Positions 20,354 to 31,776 of a stretch of DNA of 33,953 bases are shown piece after piece. Within the stretch, counting starts at the first letter, position 1; each line of letters starts with the position of its first letter. The DNA is taken from contig JAISXU010000091.1 in NCBI GenBank assembly GCA_031270395.1, positions 1 through 33,953 on the forward strand, read 5' to 3'. This DNA comes from Oscillospiraceae bacterium (GTDB taxonomy: Bacteria; Bacillota; Clostridia; Oscillospirales; Oscillospiraceae). Below the pieces are notes generated by a model. The model saw nothing but the letters and a program-made list of their open reading frames with translations, made no database searches and was not told where the DNA came from. The translations under genes were made by a program, and so were the position numbers.

Positions 20354-20838
20354 CTTAGTGCCTCCAATACTCTCTCCGCGGTTTCCTCTATCGAACCGCT
20401 GTTGTTGATTTTGAGATCGCAGGTATCCTCATAGAGGACGCGTCTCTTGCCGTACAGCTCCCGCAGACTGCCGGGGTCCTTCAAAAGCGGCCTCGAGCCC
20501 GGCGCCACCGCCGCGGCAATATCTTCTAAGGTGCGCTCCAGATACACCACGACGGCGTTGCGCCTGAGAAGCCCCGCGTTTCGCGCGACGGCGCCCCCGC
20601 CGGCGGAGATCACCGCGCCGCTCCGGGACGACAATTCCAGCAGTGTCTCCGTCTCGAGCCGCCGGAAATACTCCTCTCCGAACCGCTTGAATATCTCCGG
20701 GACGCCTATCCCCTCCGACGCCTCGATTTCAACGTCGGAATCGTACCATTTTCTCCCCAGCCGCGACGCGACGGCGCGCGCGACGGCGCTTTTGCCGCAT
20801 CCGGGCATCCCGATGAACACGATGTTTTTCGAGTTCAT
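20350..20838 (-). CDS. aroK: Shikimate kinase
   Basis: The 162-residue kinase phosphorylates shikimate at the 3-hydroxyl with ATP. It starts MNSKNIVFIGMPGCGKS with the Walker A GMPGCGKS. It contains the DSD motif (YDSDVEIE), the shikimate-binding GEEYFRRLE (usual F-R-x-x-E) and the AGGGA motif, and the lid Arg lies in APGSRPLL. The ATG overlaps the pheA stop by four bases (ATGA). An extended upstream frame inside pheA is not used. Confidence 0.96.
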   Translation of the reverse strand: MNSKNIVFIGMPGCGKSAVARAVASRLGRKWYDSDVEIEASEGIGVPEIFKRFGEEYFRRLETETLLELSSRSGAVISAGGGAVARNAGLLRRNAVVVYLERTLEDIAAAVAPGSRPLLKDPGSLRELYGKRRVLYEDTCDLKINNSGSIEETAERVLEALR

Positions 20839-21965
20839 TCGACGATCTCTCCGCAGCAGCCCAGCACCTCGAAATAGTCGCAGTGCATCGACGCGAGCGT
20901 GAGCGCGTCGCGCGTCGCGCCCGACATGATATTTGACTGCAGGTCGGCGAAAAACCTGTATCTGTCGGCGGATACGGGGCGCGACTCTATGCGCGAGAGG
21001 TTGATGCCGGTCAGCATGAACGCCTCCAGCACGGCGCAGAGCGCGCCGCTGCGGTGCGCTGTCGAAAACGTGATGCTCACGGTGTCGCAATTCTCGTCGT
21101 AAAGGGGTTCAGCGGCTATGGCGATAAAGCGCGTCTTGTTTCCGGCGTCGTCCATTATGTCGGGCGAGACTACCTCCAGTCCGTAGGCGGCGGCGGCGCG
21201 GCGCGAGCCGATCGCGGCGTATTTGACACCGCCGCGCTCCGCCGCGAGCTTTGCAGCGTAGGCGGTATTGCGGCAAGCCGTCAGCTCCCAGTTTCTGTTT
21301 TTCAGGAAGCGCGAGCACTGTCCGAAGCCCTCCGGGTGTGAGTATACCTCGCGGATGTCGCTCAAAACCGCGCCCTTTTGCCCGAGAAGGCACTGCTTGA
21401 CGGCGACCCATGCCTGTCCGACAATATAGCAGGAGTGGCGGCGCAGCAGATCATACACCTCTCCAATGGCGCCCGTGCGCGAATTTTCTATCGGCAGCAC
21501 GCCGTAGTCCGCATCATTCGCCACGACCGCTTCAAAAACGCTCTCGAAGTAGTCGTATCCGGTGAAAGCGGCGCCCGGAAACAGCAATTCCGCCGCGTGC
21601 TCCCCCCACGCGCCCTCCACCCCCTGAAACGCCGCTCTGACGCCGTCCGTCTTTCGGCTTGACGACGGGGGAAACGAGACGGCGTCGGCGAGTCCCAGCT
21701 TCTCTATTTGCCGTTTCTTTGACAGGGATATGAGCGCGCGCATCAAAGTCGCGGCAGCCGCCCTGTTCCTGTCGCCGGAGGCTGCGGCCGCGGCGTCAAT
21801 GACGTCCTGCTCGCGCCGCAAGTCGGTGACGGCGATATTTCCCCGCTCCTTCGCCCGCGCTATTTCCTCCGATACGCGCATCCTCTCGTTGAACAGTCCG
21901 ACGATACGCCCGTCTATGCCGTCGATCTCCCCCCTGAGTCTCTCCAATTCCTCTTTAGCTGTCAA
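20835..21965 (-). CDS. pheA: Bifunctional chorismate mutase / prephenate dehydratase (P-protein)
   Basis: The 376-residue protein converts chorismate to prephenate and then phenylpyruvate. Residues 1-90 form an AroQ-type chorismate mutase helix bundle (LRGEIDGIDGRIVGLFNERM). Residues 105-285 form prephenate dehydratase, with the catalytic TRF at 278-280. Residues 295-376 form an ACT domain with the ESRP motif (GINLSRIESRP) that binds phenylalanine for feedback inhibition. The start is TTG with GAGAGG about 10 bases upstream. It is separated from aroF by about 75 bases, the largest gap within the operon, which contains a hairpin. The phenylpyruvate product is a substrate for the neighbouring IorAB module. 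Confidence 0.96.
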   Translation of the reverse strand: MTAKEELERLRGEIDGIDGRIVGLFNERMRVSEEIARAKERGNIAVTDLRREQDVIDAAAAASGDRNRAAAATLMRALISLSKKRQIEKLGLADAVSFPPSSSRKTDGVRAAFQGVEGAWGEHAAELLFPGAAFTGYDYFESVFEAVVANDADYGVLPIENSRTGAIGEVYDLLRRHSCYIVGQAWVAVKQCLLGQKGAVLSDIREVYSHPEGFGQCSRFLKNRNWELTACRNTAYAAKLAAERGGVKYAAIGSRRAAAAYGLEVVSPDIMDDAGNKTRFIAIAAEPLYDENCDTVSITFSTAHRSGALCAVLEAFMLTGINLSRIESRPVSADRYRFFADLQSNIMSGATRDALTLASMHCDYFEVLGCCGEIVE

Positions 21966-22006
21966 AGCTGATCATCCTCTCAAAATTTATTCTGATTGCG
22001 ACTGCC

Positions 22007-22040
22007 GCGCGATTGTGCCCGTGTTGCGGCGCAATCGCGC
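22007..22040 (-). other. Intercistronic hairpin after aroF
   Basis: Perfect 9-bp arms GCGCGATTG (22007-22015) and CAATCGCGC (22032-22040) start at the aroF stop codon. No T-run follows. It may stabilise or process the operon mRNA. Confidence 0.6.
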
Positions 22041-23044
22041 TATCTTATCGCGGCCCGCACAGCGTCCGCCTTGCGCATCAGCCTGTGAAACACCTGCGGA
22101 GTGATGGACTGGGCGCCGTCGCACAGCGCCGCCTCCGGATGGTTGTGTACCTCGATTATCAGGCCGTCGGCGCCCGCGGCGACGGCGGCAAGCGCCATCG
22201 GCTCCACGAGATGCCAGTAGCCCGTGGCGTGCGACGGGTCGATCACGACGGGAAGATGCGTCCTCTGCCGGAGTACCGGTATGGCCGAGAGATCCAGCGT
22301 GTTGCGCGTCGCCGTCTCGAACGTGCGTATACCGCGCTCGCACAGTATGACCTCCTGCGAGCCGCCCGCCATGATATACTCCGCGGCCATCAGCAGCTCC
22401 TCGAGCGTTGACGACAGTCCGCGCTTGAGGAGCACCGGCTTTCCTATCGAGCCTACCTGCTGCAGCAGCGCGAAATTCTGCATATTGCGCGCTCCTATCT
22501 GTATGACGTCCACGTGCTCGGCGAAGGCGTCCAGATATTCCTGTGACATTATCTCGGTCACTATCGGCAGACCCGTCTTCTGACGCGCGAGACGCAGAAG
22601 CTCCAGCCCGTCCAGCCCGAGACCGCGAAACGCGTAGGGCGACGTGCGCGGCTTGAACGCGCCGCCGCGCAGAAAGCTCGCGCCGGACGCCTTGACGTCG
22701 CGGGCGACGGACAAAATCTGCTCCTCGCTCTCCACCGAGCACGGCCCCGCGATGACGGCGAACTCCCCGGCCCCGATCCTACGCCCGGATATCTCGTACA
22801 TGCTGTCCGCGGGGTGGAACTTCCGCCCCGCGAGCTTGTACGGCTCCTGTATGCGCATTATGCGCTCGACGCACGGGAAGCACATAACGGCGTCCTCGGA
22901 TATAGACGAGGTGTCGCCCGCCAGACCGATCATTCTGGTCGTCTCCCCCACTATGTCCTGCATTATGATGTTTTGGCCCGTCAACAACCGCCTGATAGGC
23001 TCGATTTCCGCCTCGTCCACACCACTTTTCAGTATAAGTATCAT
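22040..23044 (-). CDS. aroF: 3-deoxy-7-phosphoheptulonate (DAHP) synthase, type I-beta
   Basis: The 334-residue enzyme condenses phosphoenolpyruvate and erythrose 4-phosphate, the first step of the pathway. An N-terminal ferredoxin-like regulatory domain (about 1-70, [17 protein letters not shown]) is followed by a TIM barrel. Barrel motifs include [39 protein letters not shown] and the metal-binding DPSHATG. The regulatory domain in this subfamily usually gives feedback inhibition by Tyr or Phe. The ATG overlaps the aroC stop (ATGA), with GGAGAGG six bases upstream; a longer frame inside aroC is not used. Confidence 0.96.
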
Positions 23045-24105
23045 ATTGACCTCTCCTTTTTCAGATCGAGCAGGCATAGCGCCAGCCCCGCCTCCACCAC
23101 CGGAACGGCGCGCGGCGCGACACACGGGTCGTGCCGGCCGGTGAACGAGTGTTCAACAGTCTCGCCGCTCCGGATATCCACGGTAGTCTGCCGTTTCGAT
23201 ATTGTCGGAGTCGGCTTGACGGCCACCCGCAGGACGATCGGCTGCCCGTTGGATATTCCTCCCGCGACGCCGCCGCCGTGATTCGTCTTGTAGGCGACCT
23301 GCCCGCCGCGCATATACATCTCGTCGTTTGACTCGGAACCGAGCTTGTCCGACAGCGCGAAGCCGTCCCCGAACTCCACGCCCTTGACGGCCGGTATTGA
23401 GAACATCATCTCCGCCGCGGCGCTCTCAAGCGAGCGGAAAAACGGTTCGCCCCAGCCCGGCGGAACGCCCAGCGCGACGCACTCGACTATACCGCCCACC
23501 GAGTCGCCGCGCGCGCGCGCCGCCTCAATCTCCGCGCGCATGAGCTCGCCGCGCCCGGCGGAGCACACGGGCAGCTCCCGTCCGGAGGCCGCCAGAATAT
23601 CCTCCGGCGCGGCGTCGATATCGCGGACGCCGCGGACTGAGAGTATGCGAGCGCCTATCCTTATTCCGTCTCCGCGCAATATCTGACGCGCGAGCGCGCC
23701 GGCAAACACGATAGGCGCCGTGAGTCTTCCGGAGAAGTGTCCGCCCCCCCTGTAGTCGGCGTAGCCCCCGTATTTTATAAAGGCCGTCATATCCGCGTGT
23801 CCCGGCCGCATGACGCCCCGGACGTAGTCTTGCGATCTGGCGTCCGTGTTCCGAATGACAGCGCACAGCGGGGCGCCCGTGGCCGCGCCCTCAAAAAGCC
23901 CGGACAGCACCTCCCATTCGTCGCTCTCGCCGCGCGGCGTCGCCAGCGGGCCCGTCCCGGGCGCACGCCGCGCCATCTCGGCCCGCACGCCGTCCCAGTC
24001 GGGCACAAAGCCCGGAGGCAGTCCGTCTATCACAACGCCTATCGCGGGGCCGTGCGATTCGCCGAACAGCGATATTTTGAATCGGCAGCCCCAATTTCCG
24101 CTCAT
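23041..24105 (-). CDS. aroC: Chorismate synthase
   Basis: The 354-residue FMN-dependent enzyme makes chorismate from EPSP. It has the signature [10 protein letters not shown] near the N-terminus, [22 protein letters not shown] with the conserved histidine, and [15 protein letters not shown]. The usual RSS-x-R becomes HFSGRLTA in this clade. The C-terminal region has [21 protein letters not shown] and the DPC motif ([17 protein letters not shown]). Both ends overlap neighbours by four bases. Confidence 0.97.
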
Positions 24106-25313
24106 GTGCTCACATCCTTGTTCCTCTTTTCAAAATCGTCCCAGAAACCGGGATACGATTTGGCCACGCAGTCCGCGTTCTCTATAAATACGGGCCTGTC
24201 GCAGCGTATCGCGGCGACGGCGCCCATCATGGCAATCCTGTGGTCGTTGCGCGAGCTCATGGCGCCTCCCGTCAGCCGTTTTGCGCCATTTATCACGATA
24301 TGGTCGGTTCCCGCCCTGATTCCCGCGCCCAGCTTTTTCAGCTCCGAACACACGGCGGCGAGCCTGTCGCTCTCTTTCATGCGGAGTCTGCCCGCGTTCA
24401 CGATACGGCTCTCACCGTCGGCAAACGCCAGCAGCGCGGCGAGCGGCGGGACGAGATCGGGTATGTGCGTCGCGTCTATCATCATCGGCTTTATCCTGTC
24501 GCACGGGAAAACCGTAACGCCCCCGCTCCGGCTCTTGCGCACGCGCGCGCCGCAATCCTCCATAAGCTCGACTATATAGCTGTCTCCCTGCCGCGAGAAC
24601 GGGGCGAGTCCCGTACATTCGCACTCGTATCCGAGGGCGCCCGCCGCGAGAAAATATGCCGCCTGCGAGTAATCCCCCTCGATTTTCACATCGCTGTAGA
24701 TATAGCGCTGTCTTCCGTGTATCAGCAACCGGGCGTAGTTGTCGTTGTACGCGGTGACGCCGAATTTGCTCATGACGTCGAGCGTCACATCGACGTATGA
24801 CGCCGAGACCATCGGCGTGATCAGCCTTATCTCGCTGTCGCCGTTCAGCAGCGGGAGCGCGAGCAGCAGCCCCGTGATAAACTGCGAGCTGATATCGCCG
24901 GGCAGAGCGTACACGCCCGGCCGCAGGACGCCCTCCACGGTAATTTTGCCTCCGTACGAGCTTATCTCCAGGCCGTGCCTCCGCAGCTCGTCGAGATACG
25001 GCTCTATCGGGCGCTTCATCAGCCGTCCGCGCCCGACAAACGTCTTTTTCCCGGGTTGAAGCGCCGCCACCGGGAGCATGAAGCGCAGCGTCGAGCCGGA
25101 TTCCCCGCAGTCGAACACCTTATCCCCGTCGCCGGACATGGCCGCCGCGCAGCGGGCCGTGGCCTCCGTGTCCTCGGAGACGGCCGCCCGCGCCACTTCC
25201 TCCGGCCTGCCGGACAGCGCGGTACATATGATGACCCTGTGCGCTATGCTTTTTGACGGAGGCATCTCTATCACGCCTCCCGGAAAGAGCGCCACGCGTT
25301 TAGTGTATCCCAA
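24102..25313 (-). CDS. aroA: 3-phosphoshikimate 1-carboxyvinyltransferase (EPSP synthase)
   Basis: The 403-residue enzyme joins phosphoenolpyruvate to shikimate 3-phosphate. It has MPPSKSIAHRVII at the N-terminus (catalytic Lys, shikimate phosphate site), GESGSTLRFMLPVAAL in place of GNAGTA-type/GxSGTxxR, and SSQFITGLLLALPL. The C-terminal RMKESDRLAAV and RNDHRIAMMGAVAA motifs are present. The glyphosate-site segment reads GESGSTLRFM, a class II-like pattern; tolerance cannot be judged by eye. The start is TTG at 25311-25313, 10 bases after an AAGGGGGG ribosome site. The stop overlaps the aroC start as ATGA. Confidence 0.96.
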   Translation of the reverse strand: MGYTKRVALFPGGVIEMPPSKSIAHRVIICTALSGRPEEVARAAVSEDTEATARCAAAMSGDGDKVFDCGESGSTLRFMLPVAALQPGKKTFVGRGRLMKRPIEPYLDELRRHGLEISSYGGKITVEGVLRPGVYALPGDISSQFITGLLLALPLLNGDSEIRLITPMVSASYVDVTLDVMSKFGVTAYNDNYARLLIHGRQRYIYSDVKIEGDYSQAAYFLAAGALGYECECTGLAPFSRQGDSYIVELMEDCGARVRKSRSGGVTVFPCDRIKPMMIDATHIPDLVPPLAALLAFADGESRIVNAGRLRMKESDRLAAVCSELKKLGAGIRAGTDHIVINGAKRLTGGAMSSRNDHRIAMMGAVAAIRCDRPVFIENADCVAKSYPGFWDDFEKRNKDVST

Positions 25314-25337
25314 GGTTCGCCCGCCCCCCTTTTGAAC

Positions 25338-26411
25338 TCATCCGGTCTGCGCCGCGTCCGCCGTCAAAGCGCGCCCAAGCGCGCCGCCGCTTATCCTGCG
25401 ACTTGTCGGCGCCCCAAAATTTTCAAGCAAAATAAGCGTTATATCGCCGTCCGTATTCTTTTTGTCGCCCGCCATAAGCGGGATAAGGCAGCCCGGGTCG
25501 CCGTCGAAATCATACCGCAGTCCGCACGTATCCATCAGCCCGAGGAGCTCGCGCGACGCCTCCGGCGAGGTCACTCCCAGCGCCTCGCCGGCCCTCGCCG
25601 CGAGCGCCATGCCCATCGCCACGGCCTCGCCGTGCAGATATGTACCGTAGCCGTAATACTTCTCGATCGCGTGCCCGAAGGTATGCCCGAAGTTGAGCGT
25701 CATGCGCTCGCCCGTATCGCGCTCGTCGCGCCGCACATAGCCGGCCTTGCACCGGCAGCACATGTATACGATGTCCCCGAGCCTGCCGGAGGGCGCTCCG
25801 CGCGAGGCGAGCAGTCCGGCAAGTCCGCTCTCGCCTATCGCGGCGTACTTGACGACCTCGGCCATACCCGAGTACAGCTCGCGCTCCGGCAGCGTGCCGA
25901 GCAGCGAGACGTCGGATATGACGAGCCTCGGCTGGTAGAAGCTGCCCACGAGATTTTTGCCCTCGTCGATGTTCACGGCGACCTTGCCGCCGACCGACGA
26001 GTCCACCTGCGCGAGCAGCGTAGTCGGTATCTGGACGAGCGCGACGCCGCGCATATACGTCGCGGCGGCAAAACCCGCCAGATCGCCCACCACGCCCCCG
26101 CCGAAAGCGATCACGGCGTCGCTCCGCCGCAGCCCGAAGCCCGCGAACGCGTGATACAGCCGTTCGAGGTTCGCAATAGACTTGCCGCCCTCCCCCGGCT
26201 CCACCGCGACGGTCTCCGCCTCGACGCCGCGCGATCTCAGTACGTCCGAGAGCGCGTCTCCGTGCGCCGCCCTGACGTTCGTGTCCGTCACAACGGCGGC
26301 CCTGCCGCCGCCGCAGAGCTCCGCTATCCGCTCCGCCGACTCCCGGAGAGCTCCCTCGCCGATAAAAATCGGGTATGAGCGCTCGCCGAGCTCGACGTCC
26401 AGTCTCCTCAT
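25338..26411 (-). CDS. aroB: 3-dehydroquinate synthase
   Basis: The 357-residue NAD- and divalent-metal-dependent enzyme cyclises DAHP to 3-dehydroquinate. It has EPGEGGKSIANLERL, the NAD loop FGGGVVGDLAGFAAATYMRG, QIPTTLLAQVDSSVGGKVAVN, KNLVGSFYQP and the metal site LNFGHTFGHAIEKYYGYGTYLHGEAV. The ATG at 26409-26411 is preferred because GGGTGA lies eight bases upstream; a GTG four codons earlier (26423) is possible. It is the first gene of the minus-strand aromatic operon aroB-aroA-aroC-aroF-pheA-aroK-aroQ-aroE. Confidence 0.96.
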   Translation of the reverse strand: MRRLDVELGERSYPIFIGEGALRESAERIAELCGGGRAAVVTDTNVRAAHGDALSDVLRSRGVEAETVAVEPGEGGKSIANLERLYHAFAGFGLRRSDAVIAFGGGVVGDLAGFAAATYMRGVALVQIPTTLLAQVDSSVGGKVAVNIDEGKNLVGSFYQPRLVISDVSLLGTLPERELYSGMAEVVKYAAIGESGLAGLLASRGAPSGRLGDIVYMCCRCKAGYVRRDERDTGERMTLNFGHTFGHAIEKYYGYGTYLHGEAVAMGMALAARAGEALGVTSPEASRELLGLMDTCGLRYDFDGDPGCLIPLMAGDKKNTDGDITLILLENFGAPTSRRISGGALGRALTADAAQTG

Positions 26412-26440
26412 TTTCCGAATCACCCGCCTGTCGTCAATAG

Positions 26441-26557: not shown

Positions 26558-29197
26558 CTAAAAAAGCTCTGGCAGCTGCGACAGGCTCGCCTCCAGATTT
26601 GCTATCAGCGCCCGCGCCTTGTCCGCGCGCGCCCTCTCCGCGTCCACGACGCGTTGCGGCGCCTTTGACGTGAATTCCGCATTGCGGAGCTTGCCTTCAA
26701 GGCGCTCCAGCTCGGCGCGCGCCTTTTCAAGCTCGCGCGTTATGCGGCCGCGCTCCGCGTCCAGATCCACAAGCTCGCTAAGCGGCATATATATCCGCGC
26801 GGAATCCGTCGCGGCCGATACAAGCCCCTCCAAATCCGCGGGCGCGGCGCGCGAGACCGTGACACCGCCCGCGCCGGCGAGCCTCGCGATATACGCGCTC
26901 CCGGCCTCGAACGCCTCCGGGGCGTCGGACACTATGGTGATATGCGGGCGCTTTGACGGCGGTACGTTCATCTCCGCCCTTCTCGCGCGTACGGCGCGTA
27001 TGGCAGCCATGACGCGCCCGAAATCCGTTTCCTCGCGCGGGAAGTGCAGCGCGGCGTCGAACTCCGGGAATTTCTGAACCATTATCGGCGCGTCCCCGCC
27101 CTCGCCGCGCGGCAGCGCCCGCCATATCTCCTCCGTTATAAAGGGCATAAACGGGTGCAGGAGCTTCAATATTTCCGACAGCGCGTACAGCAGCGTCCTG
27201 CGCGCCGCGCGGGCGGACGGCGAGTCGCCGGAATTGAGCCGCGGCTTGCACAGTTCTATGTACCAGTCGCAGAAATCGTCCCAGATGAAGTCGTAGATTT
27301 TCGACGAGGCGACGCCGAGCTCGTACCTGTCGAGATTTTCCGTCACCTCGCGGGCGGTAGAGTTAAGCCTTGACAGTATCCACTTGTCCTCCGGCTCCGG
27401 CGCCTCGGGCAGACCCGTCTCCGGATCGTCCGTCAGGTTCATCAGCACATAGCGCGCGGCGTTCCATATCTTGTTTGCGAAGTTGCGCATGGCCTCGCAG
27501 CGCTCCGGGTAAAAGCGCATGTCGCTGCCGGGCGAGACGCCGGTTATCATATTCATCCGCAGAGCGTCCGCGCCGTATCTGTCGATGATCTCCTGCGGGT
27601 CTATGCCGTTGCCGAGCGATTTTGACATCTTACGCCCCTTGTCGTCGCGCACCATGCCGTGAATGAACGCCGCGCGGAACGGCACGTCGCCCATAAACTC
27701 CATGCCGGAGAATATCATTCTGGCGACCCAGAAGAATATTATCTCGTAACCGGGCGTCACTACCATCGTGGGATACCAGTATTCGAGCTCCGGCGTCTTA
27801 TCCGGCCAGCCGAACACCTCAAACGGCCACAGCGCGGAGGAAAACCACGTGTCGAGCACGTCGGGATCGCGCTCGATGCCCGTATGGCCGCACTTTTCGC
27901 ATCTGTCGGGGTCCTCGCGCGACACGGTGACATGCCCGCATTTGGCGCAGTACCACGCCGGTATCTGATGCCCCCACCAGAGCTGGCGCGATATGCACCA
28001 GTCGCGCACGTTCTCCATCCAGTTCGTATATATCTTAGCGAAGCGCTCGGGGACAAATTTCATGCGCCCGTCGCGCACGACGTCCATAGCCGGGCCCGCC
28101 AGAGGCGCCATTTTGACAAACCACTGCGGACTGACGATCGGCTCCACCGTCGTGCCGCAGCGGTAGCACTTGCCGACGCTGTGCGCGTGTTCCTCCGTTT
28201 TATCCAAGAGCCCGAGAGCTTCGAGGTCGCCAACGATGGCGCGGCGCGCCTCGAAGCGGTCGAGGCCGTCGTACTTCCCGCCGTTAATGATACGCGCGTT
28301 GTCGTCCATTATGAGTATTTGCGGCAGACCGTGGCGCGCCGCCACCTCAAAGTCATTCGGGTCGTGGCAGGGCGTTATCTTCACGCAGCCCGTGCCGAAC
28401 TGTGTATCGACGTATTCGTCGGCTATTATGGGAATTTCGCGGTCCATAAGCGGCAGGAGGCCGGTCTTGCCGACGAGCCACGAGTAGCGGGCGTCGTCCG
28501 GATTGACGGCGACGGCCATATCTCCGAGCATCGTCTCCGGGCGCGTCGTCGCCACGGTAACGTAACCGCTCCCGTCTAATATGGGGTATTTTATATGCCA
28601 GAGCTTCCCCGCCTCGTCCTCGTGCTCCACCTCCGTGTCGCTGAGCGCCGTCACGCAGTGCGGACACCAGTTGATAATGCGCTCACCCTTGTATATGATC
28701 CCCTTTTCGTACAGGCTGACAAAAACTTCGCGCACGGCGCGAGAGCATCCGTCGTCCATCGTGAAGCGCTCACGCGCCCAGTCGCACGAGCTTCCGAGCA
28801 GCTTCAACTGCTCTATGATCCTGCCGCCGTACTTCTCCTTCCACTCCCAGACGCGCTTCGTGAACTCCGCGCGCCCGAGGTCGTGCCGCGTGAGTCCCTC
28901 ACGGCGAAGCTCCTCCTCGACGCGTATCTGTGTGGCGATTCCGGCGTGATCCGTGCCGGGTATCCATACGGCAGAGTAACCCTGCATGCGCTTGAAGCGC
29001 GTCAGTATATCCTGGATGGTGTTGTCCAGCGCGTGGCCGAGGTGGAGCTGTCCCGTGACGTTCGGCGGCGGTATCACGACGGAAAACGGCTTTTTGGACT
29101 TGTCCGGTTCCGCGTGGAAATATCCGCCCCTCTCCCACATCTCATATATGCTCTTTTCAACACCCCTCGGGTCGTACACTTTTTCCAGTTCTCTCAA
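26558..29197 (-). CDS. valS: Valyl-tRNA synthetase
   Basis: The 879-residue class I synthetase charges tRNA-Val. The HIGH signature is HLGH at residues 52-55 within PPPNVTGQLHLGHA, and KMSKS is at 523-527. Zinc-finger-like cysteine pairs (CHYR-type CYRCG, CAKCG and CEKCG) lie in the central part. The C-terminus ends with the family coiled-coil arm (about residues 810-879). The start is TTG with GGGAGTG about 12 bases upstream. I saw no T-box motif in the leader, unlike valS in many Firmicutes. It has its own promoter, divergent from the RNase J promoter. Confidence 0.97.
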   Translation of the reverse strand: MRELEKVYDPRGVEKSIYEMWERGGYFHAEPDKSKKPFSVVIPPPNVTGQLHLGHALDNTIQDILTRFKRMQGYSAVWIPGTDHAGIATQIRVEEELRREGLTRHDLGRAEFTKRVWEWKEKYGGRIIEQLKLLGSSCDWARERFTMDDGCSRAVREVFVSLYEKGIIYKGERIINWCPHCVTALSDTEVEHEDEAGKLWHIKYPILDGSGYVTVATTRPETMLGDMAVAVNPDDARYSWLVGKTGLLPLMDREIPIIADEYVDTQFGTGCVKITPCHDPNDFEVAARHGLPQILIMDDNARIINGGKYDGLDRFEARRAIVGDLEALGLLDKTEEHAHSVGKCYRCGTTVEPIVSPQWFVKMAPLAGPAMDVVRDGRMKFVPERFAKIYTNWMENVRDWCISRQLWWGHQIPAWYCAKCGHVTVSREDPDRCEKCGHTGIERDPDVLDTWFSSALWPFEVFGWPDKTPELEYWYPTMVVTPGYEIIFFWVARMIFSGMEFMGDVPFRAAFIHGMVRDDKGRKMSKSLGNGIDPQEIIDRYGADALRMNMITGVSPGSDMRFYPERCEAMRNFANKIWNAARYVLMNLTDDPETGLPEAPEPEDKWILSRLNSTAREVTENLDRYELGVASSKIYDFIWDDFCDWYIELCKPRLNSGDSPSARAARRTLLYALSEILKLLHPFMPFITEEIWRALPRGEGGDAPIMVQKFPEFDAALHFPREETDFGRVMAAIRAVRARRAEMNVPPSKRPHITIVSDAPEAFEAGSAYIARLAGAGGVTVSRAAPADLEGLVSAATDSARIYMPLSELVDLDAERGRITRELEKARAELERLEGKLRNAEFTSKAPQRVVDAERARADKARALIANLEASLSQLPELF

Positions 29198-29236
29198 CAG
29201 ACGACACTCCCTACCCTTTCACTCGAAGTTTATCGC

Positions 29237-29276
29237 ATTATACACCGCGCGCCGCGTCTTGTCCACGTGTACACGT
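29237..29276 (-). promoter_or_regulatory. Promoter of valS with an adjacent 12-bp palindrome
   Basis: On the minus strand, TGGACA (29260-29265) and TATAAT (29237-29242) are 17 bases apart, about 40-70 bases before the TTG. The perfect palindrome ACGTGTACACGT (29265-29276) abuts the -35 element and may be an operator. Confidence 0.7.
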
Positions 29277-29316
29277 ACATACATACACCGCCGGGCAGCA
29301 ATCACCCGAACCCCCG

Positions 29317-29357
29317 CGCGAAACATTCGCGGCAAGTGCGAAACATTCGCGGCGAGA
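29317..29357 (+). repeat. Tandem 20-bp dyad repeats upstream of the RNase J promoter
   Basis: GCGAAACATTCGCGGC occurs at 29318-29333 and again at 29338-29353. Each copy has GCGAA/TTCGC arms around ACA. The second copy ends 10 bases before the -35 element. The TTCGCGGCAAG part also occurs in the ctsR leader repeats. Confidence 0.8.
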
Positions 29358-29362
29358 ACCAT

Positions 29363-29391
29363 TTGACAAACACGTTTATCCGATATATAAT
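29363..29391 (+). promoter_or_regulatory. Consensus promoter of the RNase J gene
   Basis: A perfect TTGACA (29363-29368) and perfect TATAAT (29386-29391) with a 17-base spacer form the strongest promoter in the window. Transcription should begin near 29398, giving a leader of about 390 bases. Confidence 0.9.
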
Positions 29392-29397
29392 GGCGGC

Positions 29398-29791
29398 AGT
29401 ATAAGTGTTATGGTGTTAAAGCTCCTGCGGAATAATATCGCCGACTGCTTCCGCCCTCCGCGCAACGGGGGTAAGAGCAGGGCGTTTTAAGCGGTGTGAG
29501 ACCCGTCCGGCGCCGCCGGGGGGTTTCTGTGAGTTTTGCTTTTTGCGAGCGTATTGCAAACTGATTTTATCAGTACGCCGGACAAGAGTTCCGGCGCCGC
29601 GCCGCGCGCGGCGCTATGAGGAGCGTCCTTTTTGTTCGCCCGACGCGCGTACGGCGCCGCGCGCCGGGGCGTCATGAATCCCATAACCAAATCCGCGGCT
29701 CCGGTATGACCGGGAGCGGATTGATCCCCGCAGGCGGATATTGTCCGTCCGAGGATATTATTTTATATTATAAAGGAGTAATAATCAGCAA
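29398..29791 (+). ncRNA. Long structured leader of the RNase J gene, possible small RNA
   Basis: Successive hairpins are visible. 29439-29484: arms CGCC/GGCG and CTGCT/AGCAG, with apical CCTCCG/CGGGGG, then TTTT. 29501-29524: CCGGC/GCCGG extended by ACCC/GGGT, then a T-rich stretch. 29560-29574: ACTGAT/ATCAGT. 29576-29596: CGCCGGA/TCCGGCG. 29599-29614: a 16-bp palindrome. 29610-29633: terminator-like. 29642-29673: nested GACGC/GCGTC and GGCGC/GCGCC. No convincing peptide is encoded. The first 165 bases could fold with weak closing stems in a 6S-RNA-like shape, but I cannot assign a known family. A long 5' region suggests autoregulation, as for RNase E in other bacteria. Confidence 0.5.
29610..29633 (+). 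terminator. Terminator-like hairpin within the RNase J leader
   Basis: GGCGCT and AGCGTCC (one bulged T) pair around ATGAGG and are followed directly by TTTTT (29629-29633). Its left arm shares bases with the 16-bp palindrome 29599-29614, so the two structures exclude each other as in terminator/antiterminator switches. Confidence 0.55.
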
Positions 29792-31447
29792 ATGGCAGTA
29801 AAACTCAAAATCATCTCACTGGGCGGTCTCAACGAGATCGGCAAAAATCTCACGGTCTACGAGTACGGTTCGGACATCATGATCGTAGACTGCGGCCTCG
29901 GCTTTCCCGACGACGATATGTACGGCGTTGACATCGTCATACCCGACGTCACGTACCTCGTCAAAAACCAGTCGCGCATACGCGGAATCGTGCTGACGCA
30001 CGGACACGAGGATCACATCGGCGGCATACCGTACGTGCTCCGCGAAATATCAGCGCCCATCTACGCCACCCCTCTGACGGCCGGACTCGTTCAGCTCAAG
30101 CTCAACGAGCACAGACTTGCCTCCAAAACAAAGTTGGAGGTAGTCAACGCGGGCCAAACGATACGGCTGGGCTGCTTCCGCGTCGAGCTCATCCACATAA
30201 ACCACAGCATACCCGATTCCGTCTCGCTCGCAATCAAGACGCCCGTCGGCGTGGTGATCCACACCGGAGATTTTAAGGTGGACACGACGCCGATTTCCGG
30301 CGATATGATAGACCTCGCGCGCTTCGGAGAGTACGGGAACAAGGGCGTTCTGGCGCTCTTATCGGACTCGACCAACGTGGAAAAGCAGGGCTACTCCACC
30401 TCCGAGCGCAAGGTTGGCGAGCGCTTTGACGGGCTATTCAGAGGCTGCACCCAGCGCATACTTGTGACGACCTTCGCGTCAAACGTACACAGGATACAGC
30501 AGGTCATAAATTACGCCGCTAAATACGGGCGGCGCGTCGCCGTCACCGGCCGGAGCATGGAAAATATCATGAAGGTCTCGACGGGTCTCGGCTGTATGAA
30601 CGTCCCGGACAGACTGCTCGTGGATCTCAATCAGGTGAAAAATCTGCCACCCGAGCAGGTCGTCATCATAACGACGGGCAGTCAGGGCGAGGAGATGAGC
30701 GCGCTGCACCGCATAGCGTTTTCCGATCACAGGCAGGTTGAAATTAAGCCCGGCGACAGGATACTGATTTCCGCGTCCGCCGTGCCCGGAAACGAAAAGA
30801 CGATCAGCCGCGTGATCGACGAGCTATTCAGGCGCGGCGCGGAGGTCATATATGACAAATATTCCGAGCTGCACGTATCGGGACACGCATATCAGGAAGA
30901 ACTGAAAATGATGATCGCGCTTACAAAACCGAAATTCTTTGTCCCGGTACACGGCGAGCACCGGCATCTGAGCACTCATGCGAAAATAGCCGCGCAAATG
31001 GGTATCGAGCCGAAAAATATTCTCATCAGCAGCATCGGCGCCGTTATTGAGCTGACGGAGGACTCCATAGCGCGAAACGGTTCCGTGCCGTCGGGCCGCG
31101 TGCTCGTGGACGGCAGCGCCGGCGAGGTCGGGTCAGTCGTGATGCGCGACAGGAAGCATCTCGCGCAGGACGGAATGCTCATTGTGATCTTAAACCTCTC
31201 AAGCGAGGACGGCGGCGTCATATCCGGGCCAGATCTCATCACGCGCGGCTTCGTTTACGTCAAGGAATCGGAGGAACTCATGCGCGACCTGAAGGAGGTC
31301 GTGCTCAACACGCTCTCCGGCTATACCGACCACAGGAATACTGACCTCGCCGCCCTCAAAAATTCGATAAAAACAAGTCTCTCCACATATCTGTTCAAGA
31401 AGACGAGGCGCAACCCGATGATACTGCCCGTCGTGACGGAGATATGA
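29792..31447 (+). CDS. rnj: Ribonuclease J
   Basis: The 551-residue metallo-beta-lactamase/beta-CASP nuclease has 5'-to-3' exonuclease and endonuclease activity in mRNA turnover. It has the zinc motif HGHEDH at residues 70-75, NHSIPDSV, HTGDFKVD, SDSTN and TFASNVHRIQQV, and HVSGHA in the beta-CASP part. The C-terminal RNase J domain runs from about residue 450. AAAGGAG lies 13 bases before the ATG, a rather long spacing. The gene follows a long structured leader and overlaps the next gene by four bases. Whether it corresponds to J1 or J2 cannot be told. Confidence 0.97.
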   Translation: MAVKLKIISLGGLNEIGKNLTVYEYGSDIMIVDCGLGFPDDDMYGVDIVIPDVTYLVKNQSRIRGIVLTHGHEDHIGGIPYVLREISAPIYATPLTAGLVQLKLNEHRLASKTKLEVVNAGQTIRLGCFRVELIHINHSIPDSVSLAIKTPVGVVIHTGDFKVDTTPISGDMIDLARFGEYGNKGVLALLSDSTNVEKQGYSTSERKVGERFDGLFRGCTQRILVTTFASNVHRIQQVINYAAKYGRRVAVTGRSMENIMKVSTGLGCMNVPDRLLVDLNQVKNLPPEQVVIITTGSQGEEMSALHRIAFSDHRQVEIKPGDRILISASAVPGNEKTISRVIDELFRRGAEVIYDKYSELHVSGHAYQEELKMMIALTKPKFFVPVHGEHRHLSTHAKIAAQMGIEPKNILISSIGAVIELTEDSIARNGSVPSGRVLVDGSAGEVGSVVMRDRKHLAQDGMLIVILNLSSEDGGVISGPDLITRGFVYVKESEELMRDLKEVVLNTLSGYTDHRNTDLAALKNSIKTSLSTYLFKKTRRNPMILPVVTEI

Positions 31448-31776
31448 ACATTCAGATTTTCGGCAAATCGAAGTGCTTTGACACCAAAAAGGCGGAGCGG
31501 TACTTCAAGGAGAGGCGGATCAAATATCAGAGTATTGACGTCGTCCGCTACGGTATGAGCCGCGGCGAATTTAACAGCGTAAAAAGCGCCGTCGGTTTTG
31601 ACGCCATGCTTGACGCGGGCGCGAACGGTGCGGAGCTCATAGAATATCTCGCGCACGAGAGCGCGCGCGAGGAAAAGCTCATGGAAAATCCCGCGCTTAT
31701 AAAAACGCCCGTCGTCAGAAACGGACGCCAAGCCACGGTCGGCTACCGTCCGGATATTTGGAAGGATTGGGAATGA
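31444..31776 (+). CDS. ArsC/Spx-family thioredoxin-fold protein
   Basis: The 110-residue protein begins MNIQIFGKSKCFDTKKAERYFKERRI, the ArsC/YffB/Spx signature with a single Cys11 in place of the CxxC of Spx. It also has the conserved KTPVVRNGRQATVGYRPDIW near the C-terminus. This resembles arsenate-reductase-like YffB proteins more than the transcription regulator Spx. Its substrate is unknown. The ATG overlaps the RNase J stop (ATGA), so the two are co-translated; the link may be historical. Confidence 0.88.
   Translation: MNIQIFGKSKCFDTKKAERYFKERRIKYQSIDVVRYGMSRGEFNSVKSAVGFDAMLDAGANGAELIEYLAHESAREEKLMENPALIKTPVVRNGRQATVGYRPDIWKDWE

Follow-up and report, generated by a model that had tools for sequence, protein, structure and literature searches.

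A conserved structured leader of the RNase J gene in the Oscillospiraceae and a diverged candidate copy in one lineage

The window (the whole stretch of DNA analysed here, 33,953 nucleotides of contig JAISXU010000091.1) was placed among the Oscillospiraceae by a search for relatives with RNase J, and the closest genomes appear, from the names of the isolates, to come from insect guts. The window carries rnj, the gene for RNase J, with valS as its divergent neighbour (26558-29197, minus strand). As the original prediction made from this DNA had stated, a promoter of full consensus stands before the rnj leader. The features of the locus are the following:

29363-29391, plus strand: sigma-70 promoter of rnj, TTGACA-N17-TATAAT, 12 of 12 consensus matches
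29399-29501, plus strand: 5' region of the leader, unconserved even within the genus, in which about 29440-29485 forms a local hairpin (-23.5 kcal/mol)
29542-29560, plus strand: P1-like hairpin, 29542-29548 paired with 29554-29560 in the local fold
29579-29638, plus strand: P2/P3 arm (-34.0 kcal/mol, z -2.58), recovered by local folding in both the minimum free energy structure and the centroid
29599-29614, no strand assigned: palindrome of 16 nt with overlapping 9-nt arms
29610-29633, plus strand: terminator-like hairpin (29610-29627, GGCGCT/AGCGTC) and U-run (29629-29633) within CTTTTTG, energetically not favoured
29637-29671, plus strand: GC-rich hairpin 3' of the arm, -20.0 kcal/mol in the fold
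29690-29722, plus strand: hairpin, -16.8 kcal/mol, unconserved in the sister species G002
29772-29778, plus strand: ribosome-binding site AAAGGAG, read from the sequence
29792-31447, plus strand: rnj, RNase J (551 aa), TIGR00649, 628.9 bits against a cut-off of 400

The leader of the window (29399-29791, about 390 nt) folds at -167.2 kcal/mol with a z of -3.02, and none of 100 shuffles folded as well, confirming that a structured leader of roughly this length precedes rnj. This stretch contains no tRNA. In the arm, P2 is formed by 29579-29587 with 29630-29638, and P3 by 29588-29592 with 29620-29624 and by 29593-29602 with 29606-29615, leaving a 3' bulge at 29625-29629. Local folds gave the same P2/P3 layout in G002, which has an RNase J 91% identical to that of the window, and in the locus L024. 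Note that the folds of the whole leader are unlike the local fold, the arm competing there with long-range pairing among GC-rich repeats.

The comparison set consisted of 129 distinct rnj upstream regions of relatives. Among relatives, the best-conserved part corresponds to the window from about 29758 into rnj. Further upstream, dozens of these relatives, which are gut bacteria, carry an element composed of a P1 hairpin near the 5' end, a P2/P3 arm with an 8-nt loop of sequence GNNNCRGG, a U-rich linker, the motif UACAUA and the ribosome-binding site. In many of them P1 reads GGCwUUAUGUAC or GGCUUUAUGYGC, P2 pairs GGACAC with GUGUCC, the P3 cap is GGC-GANNCRGG-GCC, and the 3' linker is UUUGUUUUGnUGyGC, with UACAUA and the ribosome-binding site next to it. 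Named isolates are among the relatives (Flavonifractor sp. An82, Pseudoflavonifractor phocaeensis and Oscillibacter sp. 1-3). The element is absent from L023 and L025-L028, where rnj lies close behind another reading frame (recR-like, by eye). In five loci (L107, L111, L115, L137 and L152) the UUAUGUA of P1 (UUAUGUG in L111) is complementary to a UACAUAA located just before the ribosome-binding site, which is suggestive of a possible long-range helix overlapping P1; this pairing is without covariation because both strands are nearly invariant.

The octaloop hairpin was found in 69 of the 129 rnj leaders, compared to 1.3% of shuffles and 0/129 reverse complements. In its stem 79.6% of cells were paired, changes on both sides occurred at 9/9 pairs, and the covariation score was 0.540, versus 0.186 in shuffles and no more than 0.218 on sliding the stem; the three inner pairs had been part of the selection and the outer six had not. 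RNAalifold recovered little structure from the family alignments because MAFFT misaligns P2, and hence the counts for the whole element come from a model-fitted alignment. Across the whole element both-side changes were seen at 26/30 pairs (score 0.371 versus 0.155), a count biased towards structure by an alignment that was fitted to it. Since counts of this kind lean towards structure, we added a test in which hairpins were not selected for their loop sequence: among all hairpins of at least 8 bp with an 8-nt loop, GNNNCRGG was present in 29/44, and on the other strand in 0/32. A lack of covariation among relatives had been named beforehand as evidence against the idea; the relatives covary strongly, whereas the window fails their covariance model.

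The element is also tied to one gene. The covariance model R2 gave 40 matches in 39 of the 150 family genomes, and 38 of these end 8-155 nt upstream of the rnj start; the 39th precedes an rnj truncated by the end of its contig, and the remaining match is weak and not at rnj. Note that the training set of R2 was made up of rnj leaders, which does not by itself explain why the 150 genomes hold almost no other sites. A search across the order found the element in the Oscillospiraceae only, with stricter filters that may miss weak members. Our results show that the relatives carry a conserved structured leader, in cis and near-exclusive to rnj.

The promoter of rnj has its own signature as well. 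Many relatives have GTATACTTTT-N11-TGnTATA in place of the usual -35 (examples are G157:C11:209812-209839 and G114:C6:53461-53488). This exact format occurs at 31 sites in the 150 genomes, 29 of which lie 95-620 nt upstream of rnj, and other formats of the GTATACTTTT box were found upstream of rnj at 0/23 sites in the same genomes. Although rnj leaders had been inspected before the format was defined, the count across whole genomes does not depend on this. The box points to a transcription factor or promoter type that serves RNase J specifically. The rnj promoter of the window is without it and has TTGACA in its place.

We propose that 29399-29791 forms the 5' untranslated leader of the rnj mRNA and that RNase J, by itself or together with a partner nuclease, might act on this leader to restrain its own synthesis; we give this explanation as a whole a probability of about 0.45. 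By analogy with other decay enzymes, the most likely role is control in cis of RNase J synthesis via mRNA decay. The folded 5' end of the leader would shield the rnj mRNA from 5' decay; an excess of free RNase J would lead to binding or cleavage of the arm and its U-rich linker, and the mRNA would thereby be opened to decay. In a number of relatives P1 starts 14-20 nt downstream of the -10 box; elsewhere the best promoter match is further off. Where it is that near, the hairpin would lie close to the 5' end and could hinder 5' decay. In many R2 matches some 40-50 nt separate the end of the element from the start codon, and control by covering the ribosome site directly is therefore not the obvious mechanism. 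The element may instead respond to another protein or to a metabolite. We also entertain, tentatively, a control of RNase J in two layers across the family, in which the near-exclusive rnj promoter box would be combined with a new kind of folded leader whose GNNNCRGG arm senses RNase J, the lineage of the window having exchanged the box for a consensus promoter and the family leader for a rebuilt one.

To our knowledge, little is known about the control of RNase J levels in Gram-positive bacteria, where it is the 5'-to-3' decay enzyme. In Escherichia coli, an element in the 5' UTR of rne serves the autoregulation of RNase E. Feedback through the rne 5' UTR is stated in the abstract of PMC10989929. 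As occurs with rne, the rnj element is a structured, gene-specific leader of a major RNA-decay enzyme gene for which feedback is proposed; it differs in that the enzyme is RNase J, a beta-CASP nuclease, and in having another structure without an Rfam match. In Bacillus subtilis, according to the portion of PMC10303841 consulted, RNase Y is autoregulated by cleavage of its own transcript, with trimming by RNase J1; the 164-nt 5' UTR of rny takes part and is cut at many sites, and control lies mainly in the first codons. As is proposed for rnj by analogy, a decay enzyme there limits its own mRNA with involvement of the 5' UTR; unlike in the rnj leader family, no conserved structured element of rny is described in that portion of the paper.

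How the window copy relates to this family is a separate question. It lies between the promoter and the rnj start, and its local folds give a layout that resembles the family order of P1 hairpin, GGACA, arm and U-rich 3' linker, although the alignment to the family is not significant. The P1-like hairpin is paired both in the window and in G002, with one pair differing on both sides, and at the place of the GC-rich hairpin a comparison by hand found a similar one in G002, CCGCCCGAUUCG/CGAGUCGGGGCGG. GGACAA and the layout of P2, P3 and 3' linker, as judged by local folds, are common to the window, G002 and L024, the last with an RNase J 76% identical, a clear P1 and only 10.2 bits with R2. However, the relatives carry a conserved structured cis element specific to this RNase gene, whereas the window copy is unmatched by their models (0.4 bits with R1 and 3.2 bits with R2); G002 is likewise unmatched by both. 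No GNNNCRGG-capped arm with at least 4 bp was found in the window. An octaloop match near 29661-29668 has a stem of only 3 bp and was taken as chance. Beyond the genus, neither DNA search, R1, R2 nor local alignment gave significant homology for the window leader: in the DNA search only G002 aligned, over 29502-29650, and local alignment with the relatives' leaders against shuffles reached a best p of 0.015-0.045 over many tests, which is not significant. Lacking the octaloop and the box, and at 3.2 bits, the window copy is therefore a diverged, GC-rich leader that occupies the position of the family element; that it descends from the family is plausible, if unproven. The initial idea of a structured, cis-acting RNase J leader is accordingly well supported in the relatives, and for the window copy by position and layout only.

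Another possibility, which we consider rather unlikely, is that the window leader holds no regulatory RNA, the lineage having lost the element and gained a strong promoter with a GC-rich spacer. The failure of R1 and R2 and the missing octaloop agree with this, as do the 5' part that is unconserved in the genus, the complete loss of the element in some relatives, and the ease with which GC-rich palindromic sequence folds. Against it, the window leader folds better than dinucleotide shuffles, the consensus fold of the alignment with G002 beats 195/200 column shuffles (z -2.2), and the GGACAA and arm layout recurs in G002 and L024. The two-sequence consensus of the arm itself was not retained: it yielded a rival fold in which no pair had changed on both sides. 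G002 is without the promoter and the 5' hundred bases of the window. In that genome, tRNA-Met, tRNA-Glu and tRNA-Val genes with a TTGACA/TATAAT promoter (L201, 578-885) stand directly before the rnj leader, and thus rnj may be read there from a tRNA operon.

A metabolite riboswitch, in which the octaloop arm of the family would bind a small molecule connected with RNA turnover, its version in the window having diverged or decayed, seems improbable to us. The near-invariant loop positions, the strong covariation and the absence of an Rfam match are all consistent with such a receptor, but a riboswitch is commonly found at several genes of one pathway and this element is linked to the single gene rnj, has no obvious expression platform, and is without its loop in the window.

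The original prediction had offered a terminator/antiterminator switch, in which the hairpin at 29610-29627 and its TTTTT would stop transcription early unless the arm of the palindrome forms. The described parts are largely there. The GGCGCT/AGCGTCC hairpin is followed by the U-run, as in intrinsic-terminator attenuators with a hairpin and U-run within a long leader; three terminator-like sites were found in 29100-29900 against 0.8 expected; and the palindrome does overlap the hairpin, so that a hairpin with its U-run and an overlapping alternative coexist at 29599-29633. The palindrome is, however, 16 nucleotides and not 16 base pairs long, and its foldable version has 9 bp and a 3-nt loop (29594-29602/29606-29614). 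Unlike in such attenuators, the terminator fold is neither favoured nor conserved. Its pair probability stayed below 1% (at most 0.006) in every leader-length transcript tried, including those ending at the U-run, and part of the hairpin reached 0.033 in the isolated arm; forcing it cost 4.4-7.0 kcal/mol, also in transcripts ending at the U-run. In the local fold the palindromic sequence sits at the tip of the arm and most of the U-run is paired within P2. G002 has UUUAU where the window has UUUUU, and although 14/71 relatives have at least 5 U in 9 after P3, 57/71 have no terminator-like U-run there. The low pair probability, the cost of forcing and the UUUAU of G002 therefore make the terminator reading unlikely, and we regard the switch as very doubtful.

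That 29398-29560 encodes a small RNA of its own, for example a 6S homologue (RF00013), is hardly credible, although the 5' part has a good fold (z -2.59 for 29399-29585) and a GC-rich folded transcript behind a strong promoter resembles 6S RNA, since the Rfam 15 search suggested at the outset brought no family to threshold in the window, the 6S RNA of this genome lies on another contig (G000:C88, 64.9 bits), and 29399-29501 is missing from G002.

In the loci of 18 relatives, Rfam 15 gave nothing except tRNAs, and searches of the text of open papers did not turn up any RNase J leader. The family element is thus apparently undescribed, with a prior listing in a motif catalogue being possible. 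It represents an RNA family that could enter Rfam and, as a conserved element of one gene, with named isolates among the relatives, a directly testable system. A leader so nearly exclusive to rnj suggests that cells gauge the amount of their RNA-decay enzyme and keep it in check.

Finally, two neighbouring regions of the window deserve mention. On the minus strand, 20835-26423 holds an aromatic amino acid cluster (aroB, aroA, chorismate synthase, DAHP synthase and chorismate mutase/prephenate dehydratase). Downstream, the protein encoded by 31444-31776 resembles the Spx/ArsC family weakly, scoring below the cut-off, and is probably co-translated with RNase J because its start lies inside the rnj stop codon (ATGA overlap).
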